A DNA stretch of 64,000 nt from Bacteroidales bacterium. GTDB lineage: Bacteria > Bacteroidota > Bacteroidia > Bacteroidales > P3. Positions 17,894 to 57,010 of this stretch are shown in pieces. Positions within the stretch are counted from its first letter, which is position 1. The number at the start of each line of letters is the position of its first letter. A model generated the notes under the pieces. It had not been told where the DNA came from, did not search any database, and saw only the letters and a program-made list of their open reading frames with translations. The stretch is taken from assembly GCA_017940465.1 (NCBI GenBank), contig JAGAYN010000031.1, forward strand, positions 102,582-166,581, read 5' to 3'. The position numbers were made by a program, and so were the translations under genes.

Positions 17894-18553
17894 ATGGCAA
17901 GGAAGTACGGCGACTCCGAGAGCGGAAAACTCGGCAACAAGATATACTACACCTGGCATGGGCGGCAATGCGAAAGGGCTATGCCCACCCATGTGGCCAA
18001 TCCCCAAACCGAAGCGCAGCAGTCGCACCGCAGCAACTTTGCCCAGATTTCCAAGCTCTCGTCCTATCTCAAGGACGCCCACCTCATCGGCCTCCACTGG
18101 CACGCTGTCCGCGAGCATAACAGCACCTACGCCCTCTTCCGCAAGCTCAACAAAGACTGCTTCACCCCCGACGGCGACATCGACTATCCCCGCGTCATAA
18201 TCAGCAAAGGCTCCGTACCCGAGGTCATCATCACTTCCGCCAGCATTGCCGAAGGTGTCCTCACCGTTACCTACGATAGCCGTCCTTACGGTGGCACTCC
18301 TACCGACGAGTTCTACCTCTTCGTTTATTTTCCCACCCTCTGTATCGGCCGCCTCGCCACCCCCGTCCCCCGCTCTGCCGGCAAGGTCACCGCCGTCCTC
18401 CCCGCCGAATGGCTAAAAGCAACTCCCGATGACAACAACGAAGAGACTGACACAATAGCACATTTTCGAATTAACACATTCCATTTATACGCTTTTCTCC
18501 GTGGCCCCAAAGGTCGCACCTCTGACACCATCTATCATTCAATAACACTCTGA
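17894..18553 (+). CDS. DUF6266 family protein
   Basis: 219 residues, start MARKYGDSESGKLGNKIYY. The N-terminal SGKLGN.IYYTW.GRQ followed by NPQTEAQQSHRSNFAQISK matches the pattern of DUF6266, a Bacteroidota family of unknown function. No signal peptide. The middle and C-terminal parts are beta-rich (EVIITSASIAEGVLTVTYD). A paralogue fused to a helix-turn-helix is at 60398-61252. It is on the same strand as the Hsp70 island but has its own upstream repeats and is GC-rich, so it is probably not part of that island. Confidence 0.72.
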   Translation: MARKYGDSESGKLGNKIYYTWHGRQCERAMPTHVANPQTEAQQSHRSNFAQISKLSSYLKDAHLIGLHWHAVREHNSTYALFRKLNKDCFTPDGDIDYPRVIISKGSVPEVIITSASIAEGVLTVTYDSRPYGGTPTDEFYLFVYFPTLCIGRLATPVPRSAGKVTAVLPAEWLKATPDDNNEETDTIAHFRINTFHLYAFLRGPKGRTSDTIYHSITL

Positions 18554-18726
18554 CACAAAGCGATAGCATTTCAGGAGATTTCCCATCCTTCGTCCATTTA
18601 TTGGGCATTCTATGCCCGCCACCTCCTCTCCTTTGTTCCGTGTCTAGACGGTTGTGTCTACTCCAAGTGGGATGTCCAGCATAAGGTGCTTTATCCTCGC
18701 AAAAAAATATGTCCGCGAAAATATTT

Positions 18727-18757
18727 TTTGCCTTATTGAAAATAATGTGTATTTTTG
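18727..18757 (+). promoter_or_regulatory. promoter of the Hsp70/AAA+/TerB island
   Basis: TTTG at 18727-18730, 19 bases, TATTTTTG at 18750-18757: a textbook Bacteroidota promoter in AT-rich DNA. Transcription would start near 18764, leaving an untranslated leader of about 245 bases that is full of inverted repeats. Confidence 0.75.
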
Positions 18758-18834
18758 CAAATGGAAATAATAGTATAAAAGATATGTAAAATAACAAAAA
18801 AATAAAGACATAGACATACAAATAGCGATTCGTG

Positions 18835-19014
18835 CTATTCTTGACTACCAAATTACCACTATAACCCAGCTCAGGGTGTCACAATCAAGAATAGGTCAAC
18901 GAAACGCCGTTCATCGGCGTGGAATGACTTGTTGGATTGTGACGGGCGTGGTAACCCTGGTAGTCAGACAAGGATTACGTTCCACGCTATTTTTATACAT
19001 TCCACGCCGATGAA
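18835..19014 (+). promoter_or_regulatory. structured leader of the island with the start codon inside a hairpin arm
   Basis: Perfect inverted repeats: CTATTCTTGA (18835-18844) with TCAAGAATAG (18885-18894); TGACTACCA (18842-18850) with TGGTAGTCA (18958-18966); GTCACAATC (18878-18886) with GATTGTGAC (18935-18943); TTCATCGGCGTGGAATG (18910-18926) with CATTCCACGCCGATGAA (18998-19014). The last 17-bp arm contains the ATG at 19010. The pairs overlap, so at least two mutually exclusive folds are possible, as in a riboregulator or attenuator. Alternatively this is a DNA site or the scar of an insertion. Confidence 0.6.
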
Positions 19015-20584
19015 ACTGATAGAACATAACCCATTCCGAATGCTTGGCATACCAGTGAATGCCAGCGCCAGAGACCTTGCCGCCAACAAGGGCAAAATGA
19101 AATTGTTGGACATCGGCAAAGAGGTTGTATTTCCGTTGGACTTGCCCGGTCTTTTGCCTCCCGCCAACCGCAACAAAGAATTTGTTGCGACTGCCGAGCG
19201 CGACATCAATCTGCCACAGGACAAAATCAAGCACGCTCTGTTCTGGTTTGCACAGCCATCTGACCCATTAGGCAAACATGCCTACAATGACCACCTGCTG
19301 CAAGGCAACATCGCGAAGGCCGAAGAACTGTTTGGTAAAAGAACCTCGTGGGAATCGCAGCTATGCCTCTCTGTGCTGGAGTTGCAACAAGGAAAACTAT
19401 GTGATGCCTTGCTCGACTTATATTCCATTGCCAATGATTATTGTGACGAACTATGTCATGCTGTAGCGGGACAAACATTCACGATGGCCAGTGTCGAATT
19501 AGTGCAGTTGTACCTAAGGACACTGGCTACCGAAATAGATGCATCGACACTATATCAGGAATGGAACAGTGACAGCAGGGTACTGCCTGGCGGTTCCGAA
19601 ATCATAGAGTTTGAGTTGCGTGATATGGCAACGGATGCACCCATCAAAATCATAGAAAAGGAGATTGCCGCAGCAAAGGTAGTTGACAATAGCAACGCAG
19701 AGGCGCAGCTGGAGACAGGAAAGCGACTTTCCAACAATACCCATAAGGCCCGTATCCAACTGCAAAAACTGATTGGAGACAACGACCCTCGCTACAGTCG
19801 CTTGGTTGATAAGCTTGCCAACCAGATACTTCAATGCTCTATCAACTATTTCAATAAGATAGACGGAGAGAACAGAACTATTATTGAAAATGCTTTGAAA
19901 CTTGGTGAGTATGCTCTCAAAATTGCTGTGGGTAAGATGGCCCGCGACCATATCCAGCACAATGTTGACATTCTGCGCAAAAAGAAAGAGAACCTACCAC
20001 CAGCCGAAGTGGAACGGGAATACTTTGCTATTATGGCTGCACTTTCCACCTTTGTCGAACAACCCGACCTTATTAAACATTCGGTCACTCTGCTCAATAC
20101 CACAAAGCCTCATTTGCAAAGTATGAAGGTAAAGCTGGGGGCGACCAATACGACATACATAAAACTGTCGTCTCTAGTGGTGAATAATGCATTACACAAT
20201 CTGATTGAAGAGGTCAATAACTCTCAAAAGACAGACCTCTTTCTCGTTCAGCCAAACATAAACGAGGTAAAACGCGCCGTTGGTGCGGCGTGGAATGCCA
20301 CCCTCTTGATGGACACCTTTGACATGGAACCCACTCTTCGTCAGCGGTACAATACACAGAAGGATACTCTTAAAGGTTTATGCGAGCAATTAGGGATAAA
20401 AACTGGAGAGGTTAGCAAAGGCTGTGTCTTTGGAATGATTCCCGTATTGATAGGAGGTATAATCGGTCTTATTATCGGAGCTAATAACGACGATGCAGGC
20501 GTGGGTTTTCTTGTTGGATGCGGAATAGGTGTCTGGTTGGGAGGATATTCACTATATGATAACTTTAAAAACAAATATTTTTAA
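19010..20584 (+). CDS. J-domain-like protein with C-terminal membrane segments (island gene 1)
   Basis: 524 residues from the ATG opening MKLIEHNPFRMLGIPVNAS; the frame also runs upstream through the leader repeats, which I exclude. The NPFRxLGIPVNAS.RDL beginning resembles the first helices of J-domains, but I do not see the HPD motif needed to stimulate Hsp70, so this is a J-like or degenerate J module. A long helical middle follows, then two hydrophobic segments near the C-terminus (GMIPVLIGGIIGLIIGA and VGFLVGCGIGVWLGGY). It begins an operon whose third gene is an Hsp70, two bases before the next gene. Confidence 0.65.
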   Translation: MKLIEHNPFRMLGIPVNASARDLAANKGKMKLLDIGKEVVFPLDLPGLLPPANRNKEFVATAERDINLPQDKIKHALFWFAQPSDPLGKHAYNDHLLQGNIAKAEELFGKRTSWESQLCLSVLELQQGKLCDALLDLYSIANDYCDELCHAVAGQTFTMASVELVQLYLRTLATEIDASTLYQEWNSDSRVLPGGSEIIEFELRDMATDAPIKIIEKEIAAAKVVDNSNAEAQLETGKRLSNNTHKARIQLQKLIGDNDPRYSRLVDKLANQILQCSINYFNKIDGENRTIIENALKLGEYALKIAVGKMARDHIQHNVDILRKKKENLPPAEVEREYFAIMAALSTFVEQPDLIKHSVTLLNTTKPHLQSMKVKLGATNTTYIKLSSLVVNNALHNLIEEVNNSQKTDLFLVQPNINEVKRAVGAAWNATLLMDTFDMEPTLRQRYNTQKDTLKGLCEQLGIKTGEVSKGCVFGMIPVLIGGIIGLIIGANNDDAGVGFLVGCGIGVWLGGYSLYDNFKNKYF

Positions 20585-20586
20585 TT

Positions 20587-21468
20587 ATGGAACAATTAAA
20601 ATATGCTTTTATTATGTTTGCCATGATGTGTTCACCTGTTCTGTATGCACAATCATACGATAGCATAATATCAGATATTGAACAAAAAAATGCAGAACTT
20701 CAAGAACAACTCACCAAGTTGGAGCAAAGAACCCAGGAACTTACCATTCAGGTGGCAGGCAATAGCGAAAGGGTAGCTTTGCTTGGAGAGGCAGTTGATC
20801 AAAAGGTCGGTGGTCTGCACGAGCAGATGGATTCCATCGATGAACGCTATGGACTGCGAATGTCAGACGCTGAAACCGCAGTACAGGAAACAGGGATAAG
20901 ACAGCAAAAGTCTGTTGTATGGGGAACTATCATTGCAGTTGTTATTTGTCTTCTGCTGGCAATGACATTCCTCATCCTCCGCAAGCGTATTTCCAAGAAG
21001 GGTGACGACATTGAGTTGCTTCGTGCTCGAGCCGACGACCTCAACCGGCAAATGGTGGAGCGGATGGATAAAGAAATCGGGGAACTTCAAAAAATATCCG
21101 AAGGATTGAATAATTCACAAACCACCCAAACCACAAGAGACCCTGACCACAGCCTTGTCAAGGCACTTGCCGATCGTATTACATTTATGGAGATGACACT
21201 CTATCGTATGGATAGCAGTATAAAGGGTCATAGGCATTTGACCAAGAGCATTAAGCAGATGAAAGACAATCTTCTTGCCAATGGATATGAACTGGTTGAT
21301 ATGCTTGGTAAAGACTACGTTGAGGGGATGAAGGTCACCGCATCATTTGTAGTGGATGATACCCTTGAAGACGGCAAACAGATTATCACAGGCATTCAAA
21401 AGCCGCAAATCAACTACAAAGGCAAAATGATTCAAGCAGCGCAAATAACCGTAAGTCAAAACATTTAA
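20587..21468 (+). CDS. membrane-anchored coiled-coil protein with GrpE-like tail (island gene 2)
   Basis: 293 residues. Signal peptide-like start (MEQLKYAFIMFAMMCSPVLYAQ), an extracytoplasmic coiled coil (about 28-110), a membrane helix (about 117-137: VVWGTIIAVVICLLLAMTFL), then a cytoplasmic coiled coil and a C-terminal compact part ending ITGIQKPQINYKGKMIQAAQ plus ITVSQ. A helical rod followed by a small beta domain ending G..IQ.AQI.V recalls GrpE, the nucleotide exchange factor of Hsp70. The next gene being an Hsp70 supports this, but the resemblance is weak and needs a profile or structure test. Confidence 0.55.
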   Translation: MEQLKYAFIMFAMMCSPVLYAQSYDSIISDIEQKNAELQEQLTKLEQRTQELTIQVAGNSERVALLGEAVDQKVGGLHEQMDSIDERYGLRMSDAETAVQETGIRQQKSVVWGTIIAVVICLLLAMTFLILRKRISKKGDDIELLRARADDLNRQMVERMDKEIGELQKISEGLNNSQTTQTTRDPDHSLVKALADRITFMEMTLYRMDSSIKGHRHLTKSIKQMKDNLLANGYELVDMLGKDYVEGMKVTASFVVDDTLEDGKQIITGIQKPQINYKGKMIQAAQITVSQNI

Positions 21469-21479
21469 TACACAAATAT

Positions 21480-24002
21480 ATGGCTAAGCTAAAAATGAAA
21501 TATGGAATTGACCTTGGCACCACCAATTCCGCAATCTGTAAGATGGAAAACGGGGAACCCATCATCAAGAAAACAGACACCTTAAAGGACACACTTCCAT
21601 CTTGTATTTCTTTCACAAGGAAGAAACTGTCACGTGTTGGCGATTCTGCGTACAACGATTTGCGTCAAGACCGTTCAAGAGCCACTAAGGCATGGTCGAG
21701 TGGCAACAGCAATGTCTTCATTGAGTTCAAGCGTACTATGGGACTTGATACACAGTATTCGAGCAGCTATATGGAGCGTAGTTACAGTAGCGAAGAATTG
21801 TCCGCTGAAGTTCTGAAGACGTTGAAATCATTTATTGGAGATGATACTGTCGATGCCTGTGTTATTACAATTCCGGCCAAGTTCAAGGCACCCGAAATTG
21901 CAGCCACTATGCGTGCGGCAAAACTTGCCGGAATAGAGCAATGCTCTCTGTTACAGGAACCCATTGCCGCTTCGATGGCGTACGGATTGACCACTGACAA
22001 CAAGAACGGTTACTGGTTGGTATTTGACTTCGGCGGTGGAACATTCGATGCTGCTCTTCTTCAAGTAGAAGATGGCATTATGCAGGTCAAAGACACTGAA
22101 GGTGACAACTACCTTGGTGGCAAGAACCTTGATTATGCCATTGTTGATGAAATCATCATTCCTTATCTGAGGGAGAATTACTCCATCGATGGCATTATGG
22201 CTGATTCGGCAAAACGGGAAATTCTGCGGGATGCGGTGAAATACTATGCCGAGCAAGCCAAGAACCAGCTATCGTTCAAACCTTCTGTCGATATTATGTC
22301 GCACTTGGACGAGTTCGGAGAAGATGACGAAGGCGAGCCGTTGGAGTTGGATATGGTCATTACAGCCGAACAAATGCAGCAGGTGCTGTCTCCCATATTC
22401 CAAAAGGCCGTGGACATTGTCAAGGGTTTGTTGAAACGCAACAACCTGAAAGGTACAGACCTCAGTTCTCTAATTCTTGTGGGTGGACCTACCTACTCAC
22501 CAGTTTTGAGGCAGATGCTGAAGGATCAAGTAACACCCAACGTCGATACCAGTATTGACCCGATGACAGCTGTTGCCCGTGGTGCAGCCCTTTATGCCAC
22601 AACACTGGAATACGATGCTGATATGAAAGCATCCGCAGAAGAGCAGCAAGTCGCCATCGAATTAGGCTACGAGTCGACGTCCGTTCTGTCAAGCGAATAT
22701 GTGATTGTAAAACTGTTGCCTAATGAGAGCAAAGGGATAAACGGGAAGAGTCTGATGTTTGAGGTGACAAGTGGTGACGGTTCGTGGTCAAGTGGAAAAC
22801 TTGCTTTGACTGCCACAGGCGATGCCGTCGAGTGTGTATTGAAAGAGGGGCGCGCCAATGCTTTTGCTATTGCCGTCTATGATGAAACCGGCAACAAACT
22901 GCCTTGCTTCCCCAACGAGTTGACTATTATTCAAGGAAGTCAGGTAGGTAGCGCAACCTTGCCATATAATATTGGTATCGAAGCTAAAGACGAAGTGATG
23001 GATCATAATGTCTTCGTTCCGTTGAAGGGTTTAGAGAAAAACCAGTCGTTGCCAGCAGTAGGTGTAAGGAACGGCCTGAGGGTTCTGAACCAGTTGAATC
23101 CAGGCAATCCTAATGACTGGTTGGTAATCCCAATCTATCAAGGAGAACACAATGCAGAGGGCAGTAGAGCCATCTATAACGAACATGTTTTCGATGTTGT
23201 GATTACTGGTGATGATGTGCCGGAGGTTGTTGCAGCAGGCAGTCTGGCAGACATTACATTGAAGGTAAACAACTCGCAAGGCTACCATATTGAAGTTCTT
23301 TTTGTGCAGATAGGTGAGACCGTGGAAAAGGATATAGAGATCGGCACAAAAAGCGTGGTCAGCATGGCAGAATGGAACCGTCTATTCAAAGAGGCAAAAG
23401 GCAAACTCCAAAGTCTTAATTCGAGTAACCATGTCTCTTCTGATGAGACACAAGAGGCAGAAAAAATTATCACTGACCTTGAAGGACGCAAAGACGGAGA
23501 AGGGGCAAAGGACGACGATCGACAGCACTTGCTGGATGACCTTCGTAGAGCATTCCGAATCTTGGAGTCAGTTGACAAAAAGCACGGACTCGACACTGCA
23601 CAGGAGGAATTGCAAGACCTGTATGACAGACTGGAAAAAGCAAACAATGATTTTGGCAACCAATATGATGATGAAGTCCAGGCTATGCGAACGGAGGTGG
23701 AACGTGCATTACGGTCTCATGACGAAAGAACCGTGCGAGAGGTAATAGAGGAGGTCAATGCATTGTTGTTTGGCAGAGTCGCCATCAATGCAGTGCTTAT
23801 CGGCTTTATCGATCATTACAATAGTCAATTTGGTCGTATCGCGTGGAAGGATAGAACACTTGCTCGTCAATTGTTGAATCAGGGTATGTCTATGGTTGGC
23901 GATGATACCGACTGGGAAGCTTTACGCCAAGTGTGTATCAGAATCCAAAATCTGCTTCCCGACGATGAAAAACAGAATGGCCCCGGCCTTGGTGTACAAT
24001 AA
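21480..24002 (+). CDS. divergent Hsp70-family chaperone, 840 residues (island gene 3)
   Basis: The nucleotide-binding domain is clear: phosphate 1 KYGIDLGTTNSAI (7-19), phosphate 2 LVFDFGGGTFDAAL, and adenosine motif LILVGGPTYSPVLRQML. It is about 200 residues longer than DnaK. The beta substrate domain is poorly conserved and the C-terminal third is a long charged helical region (about 620-825). It ends GPGLGVQ rather than with EEVD or a DnaK tail. This is an accessory Hsp70, not the housekeeping DnaK. In context with J-like and GrpE-like neighbours it should be the motor of a dedicated membrane-linked chaperone machine. Confidence 0.85.
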   Translation: MAKLKMKYGIDLGTTNSAICKMENGEPIIKKTDTLKDTLPSCISFTRKKLSRVGDSAYNDLRQDRSRATKAWSSGNSNVFIEFKRTMGLDTQYSSSYMERSYSSEELSAEVLKTLKSFIGDDTVDACVITIPAKFKAPEIAATMRAAKLAGIEQCSLLQEPIAASMAYGLTTDNKNGYWLVFDFGGGTFDAALLQVEDGIMQVKDTEGDNYLGGKNLDYAIVDEIIIPYLRENYSIDGIMADSAKREILRDAVKYYAEQAKNQLSFKPSVDIMSHLDEFGEDDEGEPLELDMVITAEQMQQVLSPIFQKAVDIVKGLLKRNNLKGTDLSSLILVGGPTYSPVLRQMLKDQVTPNVDTSIDPMTAVARGAALYATTLEYDADMKASAEEQQVAIELGYESTSVLSSEYVIVKLLPNESKGINGKSLMFEVTSGDGSWSSGKLALTATGDAVECVLKEGRANAFAIAVYDETGNKLPCFPNELTIIQGSQVGSATLPYNIGIEAKDEVMDHNVFVPLKGLEKNQSLPAVGVRNGLRVLNQLNPGNPNDWLVIPIYQGEHNAEGSRAIYNEHVFDVVITGDDVPEVVAAGSLADITLKVNNSQGYHIEVLFVQIGETVEKDIEIGTKSVVSMAEWNRLFKEAKGKLQSLNSSNHVSSDETQEAEKIITDLEGRKDGEGAKDDDRQHLLDDLRRAFRILESVDKKHGLDTAQEELQDLYDRLEKANNDFGNQYDDEVQAMRTEVERALRSHDERTVREVIEEVNALLFGRVAINAVLIGFIDHYNSQFGRIAWKDRTLARQLLNQGMSMVGDDTDWEALRQVCIRIQNLLPDDEKQNGPGLGVQ

Positions 24003-24014
24003 AACGATGTTGTC

Positions 24015-24530
24015 ATGAGTAAAATAATAGACTTTCAGATTGAATGCCCCGATTGCGGACGGCAGTATCAAGCAAAGGTATTCCGTACATTGTGGGGCGA
24101 CGGATGTACAGCAGACAACTTTACGTCTCGCCTCAAAGAGGATACCAATATGGTGACCTGTCCCCATTGCGGACATTCGTTCCGTCTGCCACTGGGATTG
24201 ATGTATGTCGATGTAAAGGCGGGATTCGCCGTATGGTACGAGCCTCAACCCGACCCCAATATAGACAACGAAGCAAGGCAGTACGCAGCTCTGTTTGGCG
24301 CCGATAGCTACTACGCGAAAGCCCCTCGCGTGAAAGACTGGAACGAATTCAAGCGCACCATTCGACGTTACTACACAGGAGAGCTAAAGGCAAACCCCAT
24401 CACAAAGTTTGACTTCGGTTCAATAAAACAGCAAGCCAGTAAGCCCGCAACTCCGCAAAAGAAAGGTGGGTGTTTGGGTGTATTGATCTTATTGTTAGTT
24501 CCTTTAGCTATAGGAATCGCATTAATATAA
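24015..24530 (+). CDS. CpXC zinc-ribbon protein with C-terminal membrane tail (island gene 4)
   Basis: 171 residues. Two Cys pairs, CPDCG (11-15) and CPHCG (about 49-53), form a CpXC-type zinc ribbon. The middle is soluble with aromatic and acidic residues, and a hydrophobic segment at the very end (LGVLILLLVPLAIGIALI) would tail-anchor it with the ribbon in the cytoplasm. It could be a substrate or nucleic-acid adaptor. It follows the Hsp70 gene by 12 bases. Confidence 0.65.
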   Translation: MSKIIDFQIECPDCGRQYQAKVFRTLWGDGCTADNFTSRLKEDTNMVTCPHCGHSFRLPLGLMYVDVKAGFAVWYEPQPDPNIDNEARQYAALFGADSYYAKAPRVKDWNEFKRTIRRYYTGELKANPITKFDFGSIKQQASKPATPQKKGGCLGVLILLLVPLAIGIALI

Positions 24531-24556
24531 AGTAACAATCCACAATAAAGTTATAT

Positions 24557-25201
24557 ATGGATAATATTCAGGGGATAACAACCTCCATCCAAGATATTGA
24601 GGCAAAAGAGAAAATGAATGAAGTATATGAGGCAATGGAAACTTTGTCCCATAGGCAACCCGTCACAGGATTTCATCACCGATTTTATGTGCCAGGATGG
24701 ATAGGTTCAATTCAGTGGTTTATAGTCGGCTCCAAAATGGACAAATGGTGCAAGCAGCCATTCTACAAAGATAAGGACTATTACGAATTTGCTGATTGGA
24801 TTGGTGACACGGCACATACATTACATGATTATTTGAACAATCCTGAAACAAAAGGACGTGTAGACTATGAGCAGCATTCAAACGAGATCGTTTCTACTAT
24901 TCATCTATTGATGGTTATTTGGGCAGAATGCTCGCCTGAAGTGGCCTCTTTTACGGATAGAGATTATCGAGATGATGCGACTGGTCAGGAATACAGAGTA
25001 TCTATAGGCTTTTTGTTGAATAAAAGAGTAGAATATGAGATAGGGAAGCCGCGTCTTGTTACTGAAACAACGAACGAAACATCCGCCTGGAAAGATTTTA
25101 AGGAGGAAGCCAAATCTTTTGGATACATGATTGCAGGATGGTTTATCAATATTGTTATTTTCGCCCTAATCGCAGGACTTATTAGCGCAATATTTGATTA
25201 G
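24557..25201 (+). CDS. tail-anchored protein of unknown function (island gene 5)
   Basis: 214 residues. No family recognised. A soluble, aromatic-rich N-terminal domain (WIGSIQWFIVGSKMDKWCKQ, FADWIGDTAHTLHDYL, IVSTIHLLMVIWAECSPEVA) is followed by a C-terminal hydrophobic helix (GYMIAGWFINIVIFALIAG). It is the third cassette protein with a C-terminal membrane segment. It sits 26 bases after the CpXC gene and 2 bases before the kinase-AAA+ gene. Confidence 0.6.
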   Translation: MDNIQGITTSIQDIEAKEKMNEVYEAMETLSHRQPVTGFHHRFYVPGWIGSIQWFIVGSKMDKWCKQPFYKDKDYYEFADWIGDTAHTLHDYLNNPETKGRVDYEQHSNEIVSTIHLLMVIWAECSPEVASFTDRDYRDDATGQEYRVSIGFLLNKRVEYEIGKPRLVTETTNETSAWKDFKEEAKSFGYMIAGWFINIVIFALIAGLISAIFD

Positions 25202-25203
25202 TC

Positions 25204-26889
25204 ATGTTTACGCTTCTGAAACAACAAAAAATAGGCAACTATATCGTTGCGTTTCCCATCAAGCAGGGGGACTATGCCGAAACGTACCGCGTGAAGGATG
25301 CGTCGGGCAAGAACTATTTCCTGAAGCTGATAGACCTTGCAAAGCTGAATGGCAAGCAGTTCGACGAGGACGACAATGTGATTGAGGTGGATATAATGAA
25401 AGGTCTGAACCATCCCAACGTGATGCACCTCGTAGAGCAAGAGGAGGTAACGCTTGGAGGAAGGCAAATGGCTTATTTAGTCAGCGACTTTATCAGCGGA
25501 GAAACCTTGGAACAGAAAGTCAGTCGCGAAGGCAGCAATCCTTACGAGGTGCGCGAATGGGTGTGCAATGTGCTTGCAGGTTTGCAGTATCTACACTCAC
25601 AGGCCGACCCCATCATTCACAATGAACTGACTCCGCAGAATATAATGTTTGATGCGACCACCAAACAAGCGATAATCATAGACTTTGGCCACGCAAGGCA
25701 TAAGAGCAACGGCCGCAGGGCTTTCGACAAGAAAGGCTTGTCGCCCTACTATTTGGCACCTGAGGCGATGAACGGAATCTATTCCCCACAAAGCGATTTG
25801 TTCGCCGTAGGAGTGATGACATACAGATTGTTGTACGGTAGCCTACCGTGGCTAGTGAAAAGTGGTGATGATTTCGAAGACCGGCTACAGAGTGAACGGG
25901 AGAAGCCACCGAAGGTTGTGTCGTTAAGTAGAGTGGCAGCACCTGACGGGATGGTCGAGACTATCGCCAAGGCACTTGCCGTCGATCCGAACAATCGTTT
26001 TCAGTCGGCGGAAGAAATGGCGAAGGCTCTGCGAGGAGAAGTGAAAGTCGTAATCAATAACACAAGCTCCCAAAAGAAAGAACATGACAGTCCCCACAAA
26101 GCTTCAAAGTCTGGCAATGGATTGGCAGATGTGGCAGGGATGAGAGACTTGAAGGCACAACTGCAACGAGATGTGATAGACCTGCTTCGAGAACCTGAGA
26201 AATATAAGCGTTATGGTATTTCTTTGCCCAATGGGATGCTGCTGTATGGCCCTCCAGGTTGCGGAAAGACTTTCTTTGCCAAGAAACTGGCCGAGGAAGT
26301 GGGTTTCAACTTCATCATGCGCACGCCGTCAGACTTGAAGAGCCGGTATGTGAATGCCACACAGGAGAACATTGCCGCCATGTTCAAGGAGGCGGAGGAA
26401 AACGCACCGACGATTATCTTCATCGACGAAATAAACGAACTCCTACCAAAGCGAAACAGCGATGCCCACGAGATGAGCCGCAGTGCTGTAAACGAGATGT
26501 TGGCACAGATGGACCGTACAGGAGAGAGAGGGATCTTTGTCATCGGTGCCACCAATTTGCCAGAGGAGATAGATGAAGCCATGTTGCGCACGGGGCGTCT
26601 GGAAAAGCGAATATATGTTGGTCCACCCGATGAAGAGGCTCGTCGCGAGATGTTTGAAATGTACCTGAAAGGTCGATATACGGACTTCGGCATTGACTAC
26701 GGAAAGCTGGCCGCATTGACCGATGGGTATGTCTCATCAGACATTAGGTTTCTGGTAGATGAAGCGGCACGAATGGCATTGACCCGCAATGAGAAGATAA
26801 CGATGGCATTGCTTGAAGAAAGTATAAAGGCTCATCCATCGTCTATTAAACCCAAAGAGCCTGAGAAAAAACGTATTGGATTCAAATAA
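25204..26889 (+). CDS. Ser/Thr (pseudo)kinase fused to a classical AAA+ ATPase (island gene 6)
   Basis: 561 residues. Residues 10-280 form a protein-kinase fold: candidate ATP lysine K41 (YFLKLID), catalytic loop HNELTPQN (139-146) where HRDxxxxN is expected, metal-binding DFG (160-162), APE-like YLAPEAM. The catalytic Asp is replaced by Glu and the Arg by Asn, so it may be inactive. Residues 305-550 form a Cdc48/FtsH-like AAA module: Walker A GPPGCGKT (349-356), Walker B IIFIDEI (404-410), second region of homology GATNLPEEIDEAMLRTGR. The ATPase could unfold clients delivered by the Hsp70, with the kinase fold as sensor. Confidence 0.82.
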   Translation: MFTLLKQQKIGNYIVAFPIKQGDYAETYRVKDASGKNYFLKLIDLAKLNGKQFDEDDNVIEVDIMKGLNHPNVMHLVEQEEVTLGGRQMAYLVSDFISGETLEQKVSREGSNPYEVREWVCNVLAGLQYLHSQADPIIHNELTPQNIMFDATTKQAIIIDFGHARHKSNGRRAFDKKGLSPYYLAPEAMNGIYSPQSDLFAVGVMTYRLLYGSLPWLVKSGDDFEDRLQSEREKPPKVVSLSRVAAPDGMVETIAKALAVDPNNRFQSAEEMAKALRGEVKVVINNTSSQKKEHDSPHKASKSGNGLADVAGMRDLKAQLQRDVIDLLREPEKYKRYGISLPNGMLLYGPPGCGKTFFAKKLAEEVGFNFIMRTPSDLKSRYVNATQENIAAMFKEAEENAPTIIFIDEINELLPKRNSDAHEMSRSAVNEMLAQMDRTGERGIFVIGATNLPEEIDEAMLRTGRLEKRIYVGPPDEEARREMFEMYLKGRYTDFGIDYGKLAALTDGYVSSDIRFLVDEAARMALTRNEKITMALLEESIKAHPSSIKPKEPEKKRIGFK

Positions 26890-26899
26890 TATTTTCAAA

Positions 26900-27385
26900 A
26901 TGGATAGAATAGAATTATACCTAAAGACAGCGTTTTGCTGCATGGCTTGCGACGGCGAAATTGCTCCTGCAGAAATGGAGAAGATAAAGACGTTGCCTCA
27001 TTTCAAAGAAATTAATTTACAAAAAATGCTCTCGGAGTATCTTTTGCAACTGCAGAAAGAAGGCAACAGATTCCTGAAGAAGTACCTTGACGAGGTGAAA
27101 TCAGCTGTGTTAACAGAAGAGGAAGAGTGTGAGCTGGCAAGTATCGCCATCCAAACCATCGAAGTGGACAAATCGATTGAATACAACGAGGTGGCATTCT
27201 TCAAAAAAATCCGTAAACGTCTAAAGCTGACGAATGAAAAGCTTTTGACAGCAATTCCCGAAAATCCCGATGTTATCGATCAAATCTCCCCCGAAGACTA
27301 TCTCCTCCCAGACATCACGGACGAAGATGACTTATCTCTTTGGACGGACACTTTCTCCAATATCAGTGGTAGCTATTCTGCATAA
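26900..27385 (+). CDS. TerB-like protein (island gene 7)
   Basis: 161 residues from the ATG opening MDRIELYLKTAFCCMACDGEIAPAE; an in-frame ATG at 26876 overlaps the AAA+ gene and looks less likely. CDGEIAP.E near residues 17-25 and the second-half pattern VDKSIEYNEVAFFKKIRKRL match the two metal-binding repeats of TerB domains, found in tellurite-resistance and stress or defence clusters. The acidic C-terminus (EDYLLPDITDEDDLSLW) could be a docking tail. It is the last gene of the cassette and an IS remnant begins about 105 bases later. Confidence 0.65.
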   Translation: MDRIELYLKTAFCCMACDGEIAPAEMEKIKTLPHFKEINLQKMLSEYLLQLQKEGNRFLKKYLDEVKSAVLTEEEECELASIAIQTIEVDKSIEYNEVAFFKKIRKRLKLTNEKLLTAIPENPDVIDQISPEDYLLPDITDEDDLSLWTDTFSNISGSYSA

Positions 27386-27490
27386 GAATAGTAAAACCTA
27401 AGCATTCCTTACTAGAGTACAACTGACGGTAGAACAGCCTGAACTCCTTTTTTAAACTATTGTGTATTATGGTATTGTAAGAAAAACTCC

Positions 27491-28318
27491 CCAGGGCAAA
27501 CGCATCAAATTTCCAGGAGAGAGAAGAGATAATCGATGCTCCAGCCGGCTTTGAGGCGTTTGGTAACGAGGCTCCCCTTGCCTTTGTCGCGCTTGAGGAT
27601 GTTGAGGGAGAATTTCCGCACCAGGGCAAAGTTTTCGGCGGACATTCCGGCACGTTTGCGCTGGCGGTCCTCGCCGAAAGACATGTCGAGGACCCAGTGC
27701 AGGGAGTTCTCCACGGCCCAGTGGTTGCGGATGTGCCGTATGTAGCCGGCCCCGCTGTCGACAATCTTCTCCGCGATGGCCCTCTGCGTCCCCATCGCGT
27801 CGATGGTTATCACGGAGCCCTCGAGGCACAGCATGTCCAGCAGCTCCGGTATGGCCGTTATCTCGTTGCTCTTGTCGCGCGTCTTGCGCTGCCCAAGGCA
27901 GATGCCGCTGCCTCATCAGGCTCGACAGCCATAGCACTCCACGCTCCATGCATGGACGAGGTGGATGGCCGTGTTGTCGCGGTGCCCGTCGCGGCTCCCG
28001 CACACCGTCTTGCCGTCGATGGCGATGGCCTTCTCCGCCACCCCATCGGGTTTAAGTCCGCTCGCCCACTCGAGGAACAGCCGCTCGTGGTGTGCCGTCG
28101 GCTATGCCGACAACTGGCGGAACTTTTACCTATAGACCTAATAACAACCATACACAGGGTATATTACAGGTCGGCAGACAGATATTTACCAACACACGGC
28201 ACCCAAAGTGTTCATAACGTGGCGGTTTCTCTTTTCCGCCGCATACGCCCTGTTGAAAATACCGCCCTCCCTGTTCATACCGTTGGATTTTTCAGACATT
28301 TTGATGCGTTTGCCCTGG
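27491..28318 (-). mobile_element. ISAs1-family element, internally deleted
   Basis: Perfect 19-bp terminal inverted repeats, CCAGGGCAAACGCATCAAA (27491-27509) and its complement (28300-28318), enclose 828 bases, shorter than complete ISAs1 elements at roughly 1.2 kb. It contains the broken transposase on the minus strand. I see no matching target duplication (flanks AAAACTCC and CAGGACGA). With intact ends it could still be mobilised by an active relative. Confidence 0.75.
27505..28110 (-). pseudogene. ISAs1-type transposase remnant
   Basis: Minus-strand pieces in two frames: HHERLFLEWASGLKPDGVAE and IAIDGKTVCGS up to a stop near 27920, then DKSNEITAIPELLDMLC, MGTQRAIAEKIVDSGAG and NHWAVENSLHWVLDMSFGED to LEI-stop inside the left terminal repeat. 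The N-terminus is missing, there is a frameshift near 27920, and the central region between GAGYI and RNHWAVEN is deleted. It cannot make an active enzyme. Confidence 0.75.
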
Positions 28319-33238: not shown

Positions 33239-33370
33239 CTTGTTTCCCTGCTACGTGTCGGGCGCAACTGTTAGTTCTGTCCGCAGGCCCTGCCGACTTG
33301 TCGATTCTTACAACGAAGAAAGTGGAGCCATCCATTTGTGACCCTATTTTCCAAGTGAGGGCTGGACTCC

Positions 33371-33475
33371 CTATGATATAAATAAAGGTTTAATGAGTCG
33401 CTCCACAAGGATGTATACAATATATGTATAAACAACCAATAGGAGCATCTGTCTACCCTTTATTCCTAATATCAT
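33371..33475 (-). CDS. possible 34-residue membrane peptide
   Basis: A short frame on the same transcript as the lipoprotein gene: MILGIKGRQMLLLVVYTYIV then YILVERLIKPLFIS. It has a single hydrophobic helix flanked by basic residues and lies 81 bases after the predicted promoter. The only support is the position, the start, and the membrane-peptide composition. It could equally be untranslated leader. The rest of 33239-33657 shows no gene. Confidence 0.3.
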   Translation of the reverse strand: MILGIKGRQMLLLVVYTYIVYILVERLIKPLFIS

Positions 33476-33562
33476 GTGTGTGAAGTGTCCAGTTTCACTT
33501 GGTAGGAATAAGGCGAAAAATGCAACTTTCCCGGCAAACCAAACTCTTGCGGTTTGCGACTG

Positions 33563-33593
33563 CAAAAGTACAAACTTTTTCCCACACGGCAAA
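33563..33593 (-). promoter_or_regulatory. promoter of the lipoprotein gene
   Basis: On the minus strand TTTG (33593-33590), 19 bases, TACTTTTG (33570-33563). The lipoprotein ATG is about 320 bases downstream, an unusually long leader that could hold the 34-residue frame. Confidence 0.65.
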
Positions 33594-56754: not shown

Positions 56755-56786
56755 TTTTGTCAGTCCGATTTATTTTTGTATTTTTG
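56755..56786 (+). promoter_or_regulatory. promoter of the putative 6S-like RNA
   Basis: TTTTG (56755-56759), 19 bases, TATTTTTG (56779-56786). Predicted start near 56793. Confidence 0.72.
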
Positions 56787-56792
56787 CAGCCG

Positions 56793-56980
56793 ATTTCGAA
56801 AGGAAATCGTCGAAGCGTTATGCTTGCTTCTGCATGTAGGAATGTAGGAACCTCCCACGTATCGCAGAGTTTGTGTGACGGTTCGCGCTGTTTAGCGTGG
56901 GCTGAATTCACCCTCTCGATACAAGGTCTTTCCTACAACCTCTACATGAAGATGCGGTGCACAGGCCACGCTTCTTTTAT
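56793..56980 (+). ncRNA. structured RNA, possibly 6S-like
   Basis: A long irregular rod: closing stem GAAGCGT (56812-56818) with ACGCTTC (56968-56974), then CATGTA (56833-56838) with TACATG (56943-56948), then TGTAGGAA (56843-56850) with TTCCTACA (56930-56937), enclosing alternative inner stems (CCCACG/CGTGGG, GTATCG/CGATAC). A short hairpin CGATTTC/GAAATCG sits at the 5' end. Length, rod shape and an own promoter recall 6S RNA or the Bacteroidales-1 class. It may instead be the leader of the next gene. No strong terminator is visible. Confidence 0.5.
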
Positions 56981-57010
56981 GAACATATCAACTAAATTAA
57001 AAATAATATC

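Follow-up and report, generated by a model that had tools for sequence, protein, structure and literature searches.

The mitochondrial import motor PAM is a eukaryotic assembly that combines a membrane-tethered Hsp70 with the HPD-less J-like protein Pam16 and a GrpE homologue, and it has no AAA+ partner. Here we describe a bacterial locus that would be comparable in logic to PAM, if the reading we prefer is right: a cassette of seven genes (A to G) at positions 18727-27385 of a 64,000-nt stretch of Bacteroidales DNA, called the window in the following, in which all positions are counted unless a locus number (L) precedes them. Like the DnaK-DnaJ-GrpE team, the cassette holds in one operon an Hsp70 with an intact ATPase domain (gene C), a J-like protein (gene A) and a weakly GrpE-like partner (gene B). 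It differs from that team in that the J-like protein lacks the HPD motif and has a membrane tail, the GrpE-like part is the tail of a protein with one transmembrane (TM) segment, the C-terminal half of the Hsp70 is not recognized by Pfam, and AAA+ and TerB-like partners (genes F and G) are added.

Two other described systems resemble the cassette in part. The excerpts of PMC7159879 considered here describe GAP1-N2 GTPase systems with HSP70, GrpE and DnaJ as predicted conflict operons centred on GTPases. The cassette shares with them the Hsp70 team in one operon, and no GTPase family is found among the Pfam matches listed for its seven proteins (the best 25 of 57 for D, the best 25 of 38 for F). 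The CoCoNuTs, as far as the excerpts of PMC11090510 go, are built around McrB/McrC homologues and RNases and include Hsp70-like domains with degenerate ATPase motifs as well as TerY-P. Here, the likeness is an Hsp70-like domain, a kinase and a zinc ribbon near restriction genes, whereas the ATPase motifs of the cassette Hsp70 are intact; no McrB or McrC family is found among the same listed Pfam matches, with the same limits for D and F. The open literature, which leaves out subscription papers and preprint servers, contained no recognised description or name for this protein set and nothing on membrane J-proteins in Bacteroides. No model set of PADLOC-DB 2.0.0 matches the cassette, with generic kinase and AAA matches for F and weak coiled-coil matches for B. 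The first-pass annotation, which had been made from the sequence alone and knew of no named system with this layout, is thus upheld within the sources searched.

A recurrent five-gene core with a swappable slot

We scanned a collection of species genomes with the tail of protein B and used the best 80 of 177 relatives. Since the loci were chosen through B, all recurrence counts are conditional on this gene, and seven of the 80 loci (L038, L049, L066, L073, L080, L106 and L114) share contigs, judged by their length, with genomes used for building the profiles. Of the 75 loci assessable upstream of B, 74 have gene A there. Downstream, where 66 loci could be assessed, F is present in 58, G in 52 and both in 50. 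F is absent from eight loci, six of which also lack G, and because A, B and C persist there, we regard this Hsp70 triad as the nucleus of the system. The layout that recurs is A-B-C-(slot)-F-G, a five-gene core with a swappable slot. The core set co-occurs over Bacteroidales, Flavobacteriia, a Cyclobacteriaceae, a Saprospiria plasmid and a metagenome-assembled genome (MAG) of Melioribacteraceae; we suspect binning errors behind relatives labelled Clostridia, Paraglaciecola, Oceanicaulis and Lachnospiraceae. A plasmid search with protein A returned one copy, on pHALHY02 of Haliscomenobacter hydrossis (L020; NC_015512, 732-24999), which has the order A-B-C-F-G and adjoins SIR2, WD40 and BREX genes.

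This comparison of neighborhoods bears out the first-pass annotation in that the set is recurrent, membrane-linked and contains both Hsp70 and AAA+ proteins, but it reduces the proposed seven-gene unit to the five genes A, B, C, F and G, with D and E being swappable. In the window itself, open reading frames (ORFs) and an exact promoter match confirm seven co-directional genes (19010-27385) behind one promoter, separated by gaps of 2, 11, 12, 26, 2 and 10 nt if gene A starts at ATG 19010 and gene G at ATG 26900 (Table 1). The promoter pattern TTTG-N19-TATTTTTG has seven exact matches in the window versus 0.08 expected by chance. Simple hydropathy finds a single strongly hydrophobic segment in every protein from A to E and none in F or G, and no Pfam family was assigned to A, B or E.

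The slot between C and F differs among genomes and contains a CpXC protein with a TM segment, an E-like tail-anchored protein, a two-TM protein of 307 residues, a secreted SH3 protein (SH3_3, 6.5e-9) or, in Flavobacteriia, lipoprotein-like coiled coils; the classes other than SH3 were set by sequence and hydropathy. Judged by the listed sequence starts, D-like genes occupy the slot in L037, L045 and L063 and an E-like gene in L061. The same slot-type layout and near-identical slot protein starts are seen in L041 and L042, two MAGs from one sample series with different genus labels, which points to either a recent transfer or a binning error.

The Pfam matches agree with the labels Hsp70, CpXC (D, 5e-11), AAA+ and kinase of the first-pass annotation. 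Hsp70 C matches Pfam HSP70 (2e-66) in residues 9-381 of 840 only, and the DLGTTNS motif is found in 73 of 74 Hsp70s, indicating that the ATPase motifs are intact. A canonical substrate-binding domain is not recognized in C, where the best Pfam stretch is 9-381 and the PDB profile matches (60 listed) end near 372-396; a diverged one is possible in the C-terminal part, which includes a hydrophobic segment at 759-777. Protein F matches both AAA (1.6e-38) and Pkinase (1.6e-34). Its Walker A motif GPPGCGK[TS] is found in 60 of 61 proteins, and Walker B and the arginine finger are kept across the listed motif types except one MLGSGRLE. F therefore carries an intact classical AAA+ domain, a putative unfoldase. 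In the kinase part, the ATP lysine is present in 60 and the DFG Asp in 55 of the 61 proteins. The HRD aspartate, expected for an active Ser/Thr kinase of the PD-T4-6 type, is not conserved among them (E in 35, D in 17 and A, N or G in nine), and the catalytic-loop lysine is replaced by threonine in 13 of 14 listed motif types. The kinase label thus holds for the Pfam match but not for the catalytic residues, and we call this part degenerate, with weak activity remaining possible. An IGF-type C-terminal tail, which we take to resemble ClpX-type docking loops, is found in 55 of 61 F proteins. For G, the TerB label has weak backing (Pfam 0.14, 12.9 bits versus a curated cut-off of 24.4), and the plasmid homologue is annotated as TerB family.

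J-domain and GrpE assignments from Pfam alone were dropped, as DnaJ is absent among the 25 families listed of the 129 matched by 74 A proteins, and GrpE is weak: of 63 B proteins, 10 reach E≤1 (best 0.0018), and coiled-coil families match more often. Profile-profile alignment was used instead, with a J profile from 30 of 30 fetched loci and a GrpE profile from 23 of 30, chosen by motif. Protein A aligns with the J-domain profile over 65 columns (hhalign probability 50%, E 1.6e-4; none of 150 shuffles as high). Its J-domain-like label is therefore backed by the profile but not by the HPD motif, which none of 87 A proteins shows within the first 110 residues. A C-terminal TM segment is present in 60 of 86 A proteins. 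The tail of B aligns with GrpE from end to end, with a global score of 11.8 exceeding all 150 column shuffles (maximum 11.4) and a local score reached by five of them; at an hhalign probability of 1-2%, the statistics behind its GrpE-like label are weak. B proteins have a TM segment at 85-150 in 65 of 71 cases and a hydrophobic N-terminus in 55 of 71. The own genome also encodes a DnaJ, a GrpE and a further Hsp70 that is contig-cut.

Table 1. Positions of the cassette features and of related features elsewhere (window positions, or locus number and position)
Feature	Position	Strand	Basis or remark
Bacteroidales-type promoter TTTG-N19-TATTTTTG	18727..18757	+	exact pattern
Structured leader RNA ending in U-run just before gene A	18822..19000	+	fold, covariation
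17-nt perfect inverted repeat	18910-18926 / 18998-19014	+	3' arm covers start codon of gene A
Gene A, 524 aa: J-like N-terminus without HPD, glycine-zipper-like membrane segment at the C-terminus	19010..20584	+	profiles, motifs, hydropathy
Gene B, 293 aa: N-terminus resembling a signal peptide, coiled coil, single TM segment, C-terminal domain (184-293) weakly GrpE-like	20587..21468	+	
Gene C, 840 aa Hsp70: nucleotide-binding motifs intact, C-terminal half family-specific	21480..24002	+	Pfam, motifs
Gene D, slot gene: CpXC zinc ribbon and C-terminal TM	24015..24530	+	Pfam, hydropathy
Gene E, slot gene: tail-anchored protein, no assigned family	24557..25201	+	Pfam, hydropathy
Gene F: degenerate kinase fused to intact classical AAA+ domain, C-terminal IGF-type tail	25204..26889	+	Pfam, motifs
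Gene G: TerB-like protein, weak by Pfam	26900..27385	+	
Further weaker leader match	56812-56984	+	E 2.6e-5
Further weaker leader match	33341-33511	-	E 3.4e-4
Own-genome run with 82% identical leader	L229:1949-9521	-	AT-rich, secreted-looking genes
TPR/protease gene	L063:5113-7635, L038:829-2865, L037:5709-7742		Pfam run on L038, L063
Gld-type motor set headed by B-type one-TM protein	L223:8377-15422, L224:8172-15716, L225:458-5662		
Phage giant proteins with B-tail-like domain	L117:6401-18742, L118:6845-20212		

The leader RNA

Between the promoter and gene A lies a strongly covarying RNA of ~176 nt without a match in Rfam, a feature that is new here and was not part of the first-pass annotation. 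None of 100 shuffles was as stable as its fold (z -4.1), and Rfam 15 gave no match at E≤1 over 18500-27600. An 82% identical copy elsewhere in the own genome, behind a TAccTTTG box, has 51 pairs in common with it, of which none is broken and six are compensatory. A model from these two copies, applied to 344 genomes of the order, had matches at E≤0.001 in 33 of them, and 28 of those places plus five others gave an alignment of 33 rows, in which both sides change in 43 of 51 pairs and 91.5% of the cells pair, the two outermost helices being weak (68% and 62% paired). The covariation in this alignment is 0.658 versus 0.193 in shuffled and at most 0.101 in slid controls; with 46 rows, 48 of 49 pairs change on both sides and the covariation is 0.739 versus 0.205 and at most 0.087, respectively.

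Several ideas about the element were rejected. The inverted repeat over the start codon of gene A is not a general feature, as 17 nt are reached in the window alone of 59 leaders and the next longest repeat has 9. An alternative pairing, GCGTGGAA/TTCCACGC, is possible in 82.2% of the cells, fewer than the closing stem (94.4%) or the main structure (91.5%). We also considered integron attC, retron and 6S RNA and dropped them, as no match supported any of these. When 20 element-bearing loci were compared with Rfam, one microRNA match appeared (E 0.026), below the gathering score and outside the element. In the excerpts of PMC8040213 (2021), palindromic Bacteroidetes RNA candidates near TPR genes are reported, including HMP2_4205. 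HMP2_4205 shares with the leader a palindromic build, a Bacteroidetes origin, a predicted terminator and frequent proximity to TPR genes, and differs in its length of 132 bp (PMC8040213). One of these candidates may be the leader element.

The 33-row model was run on the window and 90 loci, comprising 77 of the 80 species loci (without L042, L077 and L098) and 13 others, which are Hsp70-bearing genomes of the order and the plasmid, partly duplicates. At E≤0.1 it gave 20 matches in 1.6 Mb, three in the window and 17 that represent 14 distinct loci among the 77 searched relatives, all of them on the operon strand and in the operon leader. Eleven of the 14 elements end 21-98 nt before gene A, the other three precede a protease gene before A, and a TAnnTTTG box is found at 12, the nearest 42-91 nt upstream. 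Seven matches are strong (L063, L038, L052, L096, L074, L037 and L049; E 4e-24 to 4e-4), four of them independent and three in the training set (L063, L038 and L049, the last a short 96-nt form). The other 63 loci, some of which end before the leader, show no match, and 420 kb of control DNA show one (L123).

The leader element is not private to the cassette, because at E≤0.001 matches are found in 40 of 375 genomes across the phylum, with seven places in the own genome. The model also matches ahead of other, mostly secreted-protein genes. In the own-genome run behind the 82% identical copy, LysM, LPP20, OMP barrel and transglutaminase are matched in Pfam, all below cut-off. The two weaker matches in the window lie shortly behind exact promoters, at 56756-56786 (+) and 33563-33593 (-), and ahead of lipoprotein-like genes without a Pfam family. 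The gene between leader and A in L037, L038 and L063 encodes a TPR/retropepsin-like aspartyl protease, to which L063 adds a TonB C-terminal domain; a homologue is located elsewhere in L086. In L237, L239, L241, L242, L244 and L246, the leader is followed by six mutually similar small proteins, HTH-regulator-like by eye.

Base composition and distribution

The GC content is 0.452 in 18727-27385 versus 0.607 in the rest of the window, which confirms the AT-richness described in the first-pass annotation, and 153 stretches of the same size sampled elsewhere range from 0.545 to 0.670. The insertion sequence (IS) remnant at which the block had been said to end is weakly backed, by a DDE_Tnp_1 match below cut-off (4e-4) in a putative remnant at 27505-27834. 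Among 393 genomes of the order, 17 including the own match Hsp70 C at E≤1e-60: 12 (again with the own) are nearly full-length at ≥41% identity, one is contig-cut and four show 29-37%. A same-genus genome has no Hsp70 match at this threshold, and its EF-G contig of only 5,391 bases is too short for a comparison with a possible empty insertion site. The system is thus patchy across the phylum as well, where the B-tail profile finds matches at E≤1e-12 in just six of 395 genomes, one of them the own. A patchy, AT-rich cassette is as expected for accessory DNA. In an Hsp70 tree of 74 rows with lineage labels set by us, Flavobacteriia and Bacteroidales stay apart with two changes each, and deep descent therefore looks mostly vertical. 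Thus, horizontal transfer, as proposed in the first-pass annotation, finds support in patchiness and low GC but not in the tree, and the case for mobility is built on the former two.

Proposed mechanism and alternatives

The operon is recurrent, hydrophobic segments are present in A, B and several slot proteins, and the Hsp70 and AAA+ motifs are intact. We propose a membrane-tethered Hsp70 machine that remodels or extracts proteins at the inner membrane and whose expression is set by the leader RNA, and give this reading an even chance of being correct. A and B would hold Hsp70 C at the cytosolic side of the membrane, the periplasmic coiled coil of B would sense the state of the envelope, and its GrpE-like head would set the nucleotide cycle of the Hsp70. 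F could thread or disassemble what the Hsp70 hands over, docking or sensing ligands through its kinase fold, while G and the slot proteins may be adaptors or clients. The leader RNA would be an attenuator that keeps the operon low until a signal appears that is common to other operons with the same leader. If true, bacteria would possess an Hsp70/AAA+ machine dedicated to the membrane, with a regulator that spans it and a path, open to testing, by which the periplasm could act on the chaperone cycle, and a leader in front of several genes of one genome could expose a regulon and its signal. A bolder version, which we regard as doubtful, couples the Hsp70 cycle to an AAA+ pseudokinase and lets an exchange factor that spans the membrane report the envelope state directly to this cycle; the attenuating leaders would be a new RNA class and define a Bacteroidota envelope regulon, and the giant proteins of some phages would include a copied exchange-factor domain with which to seize the Hsp70.

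The tail of B is also found outside the cassette. A B-tail profile with the phage sequence placed first matched 15 of 393 genomes, and five extra regions were fetched (L222-L226). In L223, L224 and L225, GldL- and GldM-like genes (confirmed by Pfam in L223, called by sequence in L224 and L225) come right after the gene for a B-type protein, and no Hsp70 is present in the fetched stretch. The B tail thus serves one-TM envelope proteins as a module in at least two gene settings. Two phage giant proteins of more than 4,000 aa hold a B-tail-like domain with 50% and 48% identity to that of the window over ~70 residues, and with a third, weak match (32%) three viral contigs were found in all. The single proteins F and C gave no viral match in searches that reach close relatives only.

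Several observations weigh against the membrane-tethered machine. Having lost the HPD motif, A cannot stimulate an Hsp70 classically; its J-like assignment is moderate and the GrpE assignment of B weak; the B-type proteins before GldL/GldM-like genes imply that the tail need not be an exchange factor; and among the 12 long Hsp70 homologues, L031 stands beside an A-like gene only, with B, F and G absent by BLAST. For the RNA, both alignments (33 and 46 rows) follow the model and are thereby biased towards its structure, with slid controls far lower. Seven of the 14 cassette matches (L039, L044, L046, L047, L068, L069 and L073) are weak (E 0.003-0.09) and longer, and as model-free folding gives them two separate hairpins without covariation support (term +0.55), their membership is uncertain. 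Moreover, the leader could be a stand-alone small RNA (sRNA) instead of an attenuator. The proteins might instead form an envelope signalling or scaffold complex, in which the B tail serves as an adaptor instead of exchanging nucleotides, and the Hsp70 acts not as a chaperone but as a structural or switch ATPase. This would agree with the three motor-gene regions, the tail in phage giant proteins, the weak GrpE statistics and an Hsp70 without a Pfam-recognisable substrate-binding part, but in the great majority of the loci studied B immediately precedes an Hsp70, a J-like gene precedes B in all but one of 75, and both ATPases keep their motifs, so that we consider it quite improbable. The RNA taken alone could be a terminator-ended sRNA or a mobile palindrome lying before genes by chance, not a cis-acting leader. 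The TAnnTTTG box within 160 nt upstream of 23 of the 33 elements (a figure that includes no chance rate), the U-runs at their 3' ends and the seven copies before unrelated genes in one genome would fit such an element. However, the next mechanically called ORF shares the strand of the element in 28 of 33 cases (not in three, and two lack the DNA for judging), most cassette elements end shortly before gene A, and compensatory changes keep the pairs, with G-U pairs on the sense strand, unlike in a decaying palindrome; we think this explanation fairly unlikely.

An anti-phage role, also suggested in the first-pass annotation, would have the Hsp70/AAA+ system sense phage-induced membrane or folding stress and trigger a response, with slot genes as effectors or sensors. 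The patchy distribution (long homologues in 12 of 393 genomes), the low GC and the swappable slot are in line with this, as are BREX and SIR2 beside the plasmid copy, one pAgo and two SoFic-like flank proteins, the PADLOC kinase- and AAA-type matches of F, though generic, and the phage B-tail-like domains, which could be decoys. In contrast, 45 PADLOC models among 133 of the 223 nearest flank proteins versus 47 among 124 of 192 control proteins show no excess, where the tallies count models, not proteins, and the controls, 16 regions taken from nine contigs of carrier genomes, do not match all 80 loci in lineage. A habitual place in defence islands, an idea we rejected, is therefore disfavoured, while the comparison does not bear on function. 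The cassette also lacks a PADLOC set and an obvious killing effector, the catalytic residues of the F kinase are not conserved, and neither A nor the B tail matched any of the 50,697 phage records of INPHARED. An anti-phage role is thereby neither supported nor excluded, and we judge it unlikely.

The 469 flank proteins fall into 396 clusters, and their listed Pfam tallies, from a run on the flanks alone without control regions, are mixed: TPR 4, aspartyl protease 3, and NAD synthase, MFS, radical SAM, Fic and phage-integrase SAM 2 each. Of the remaining extra regions, L222 contains a solitary B-type protein and L226 a second, contig-cut set in the order G-A-x-B.

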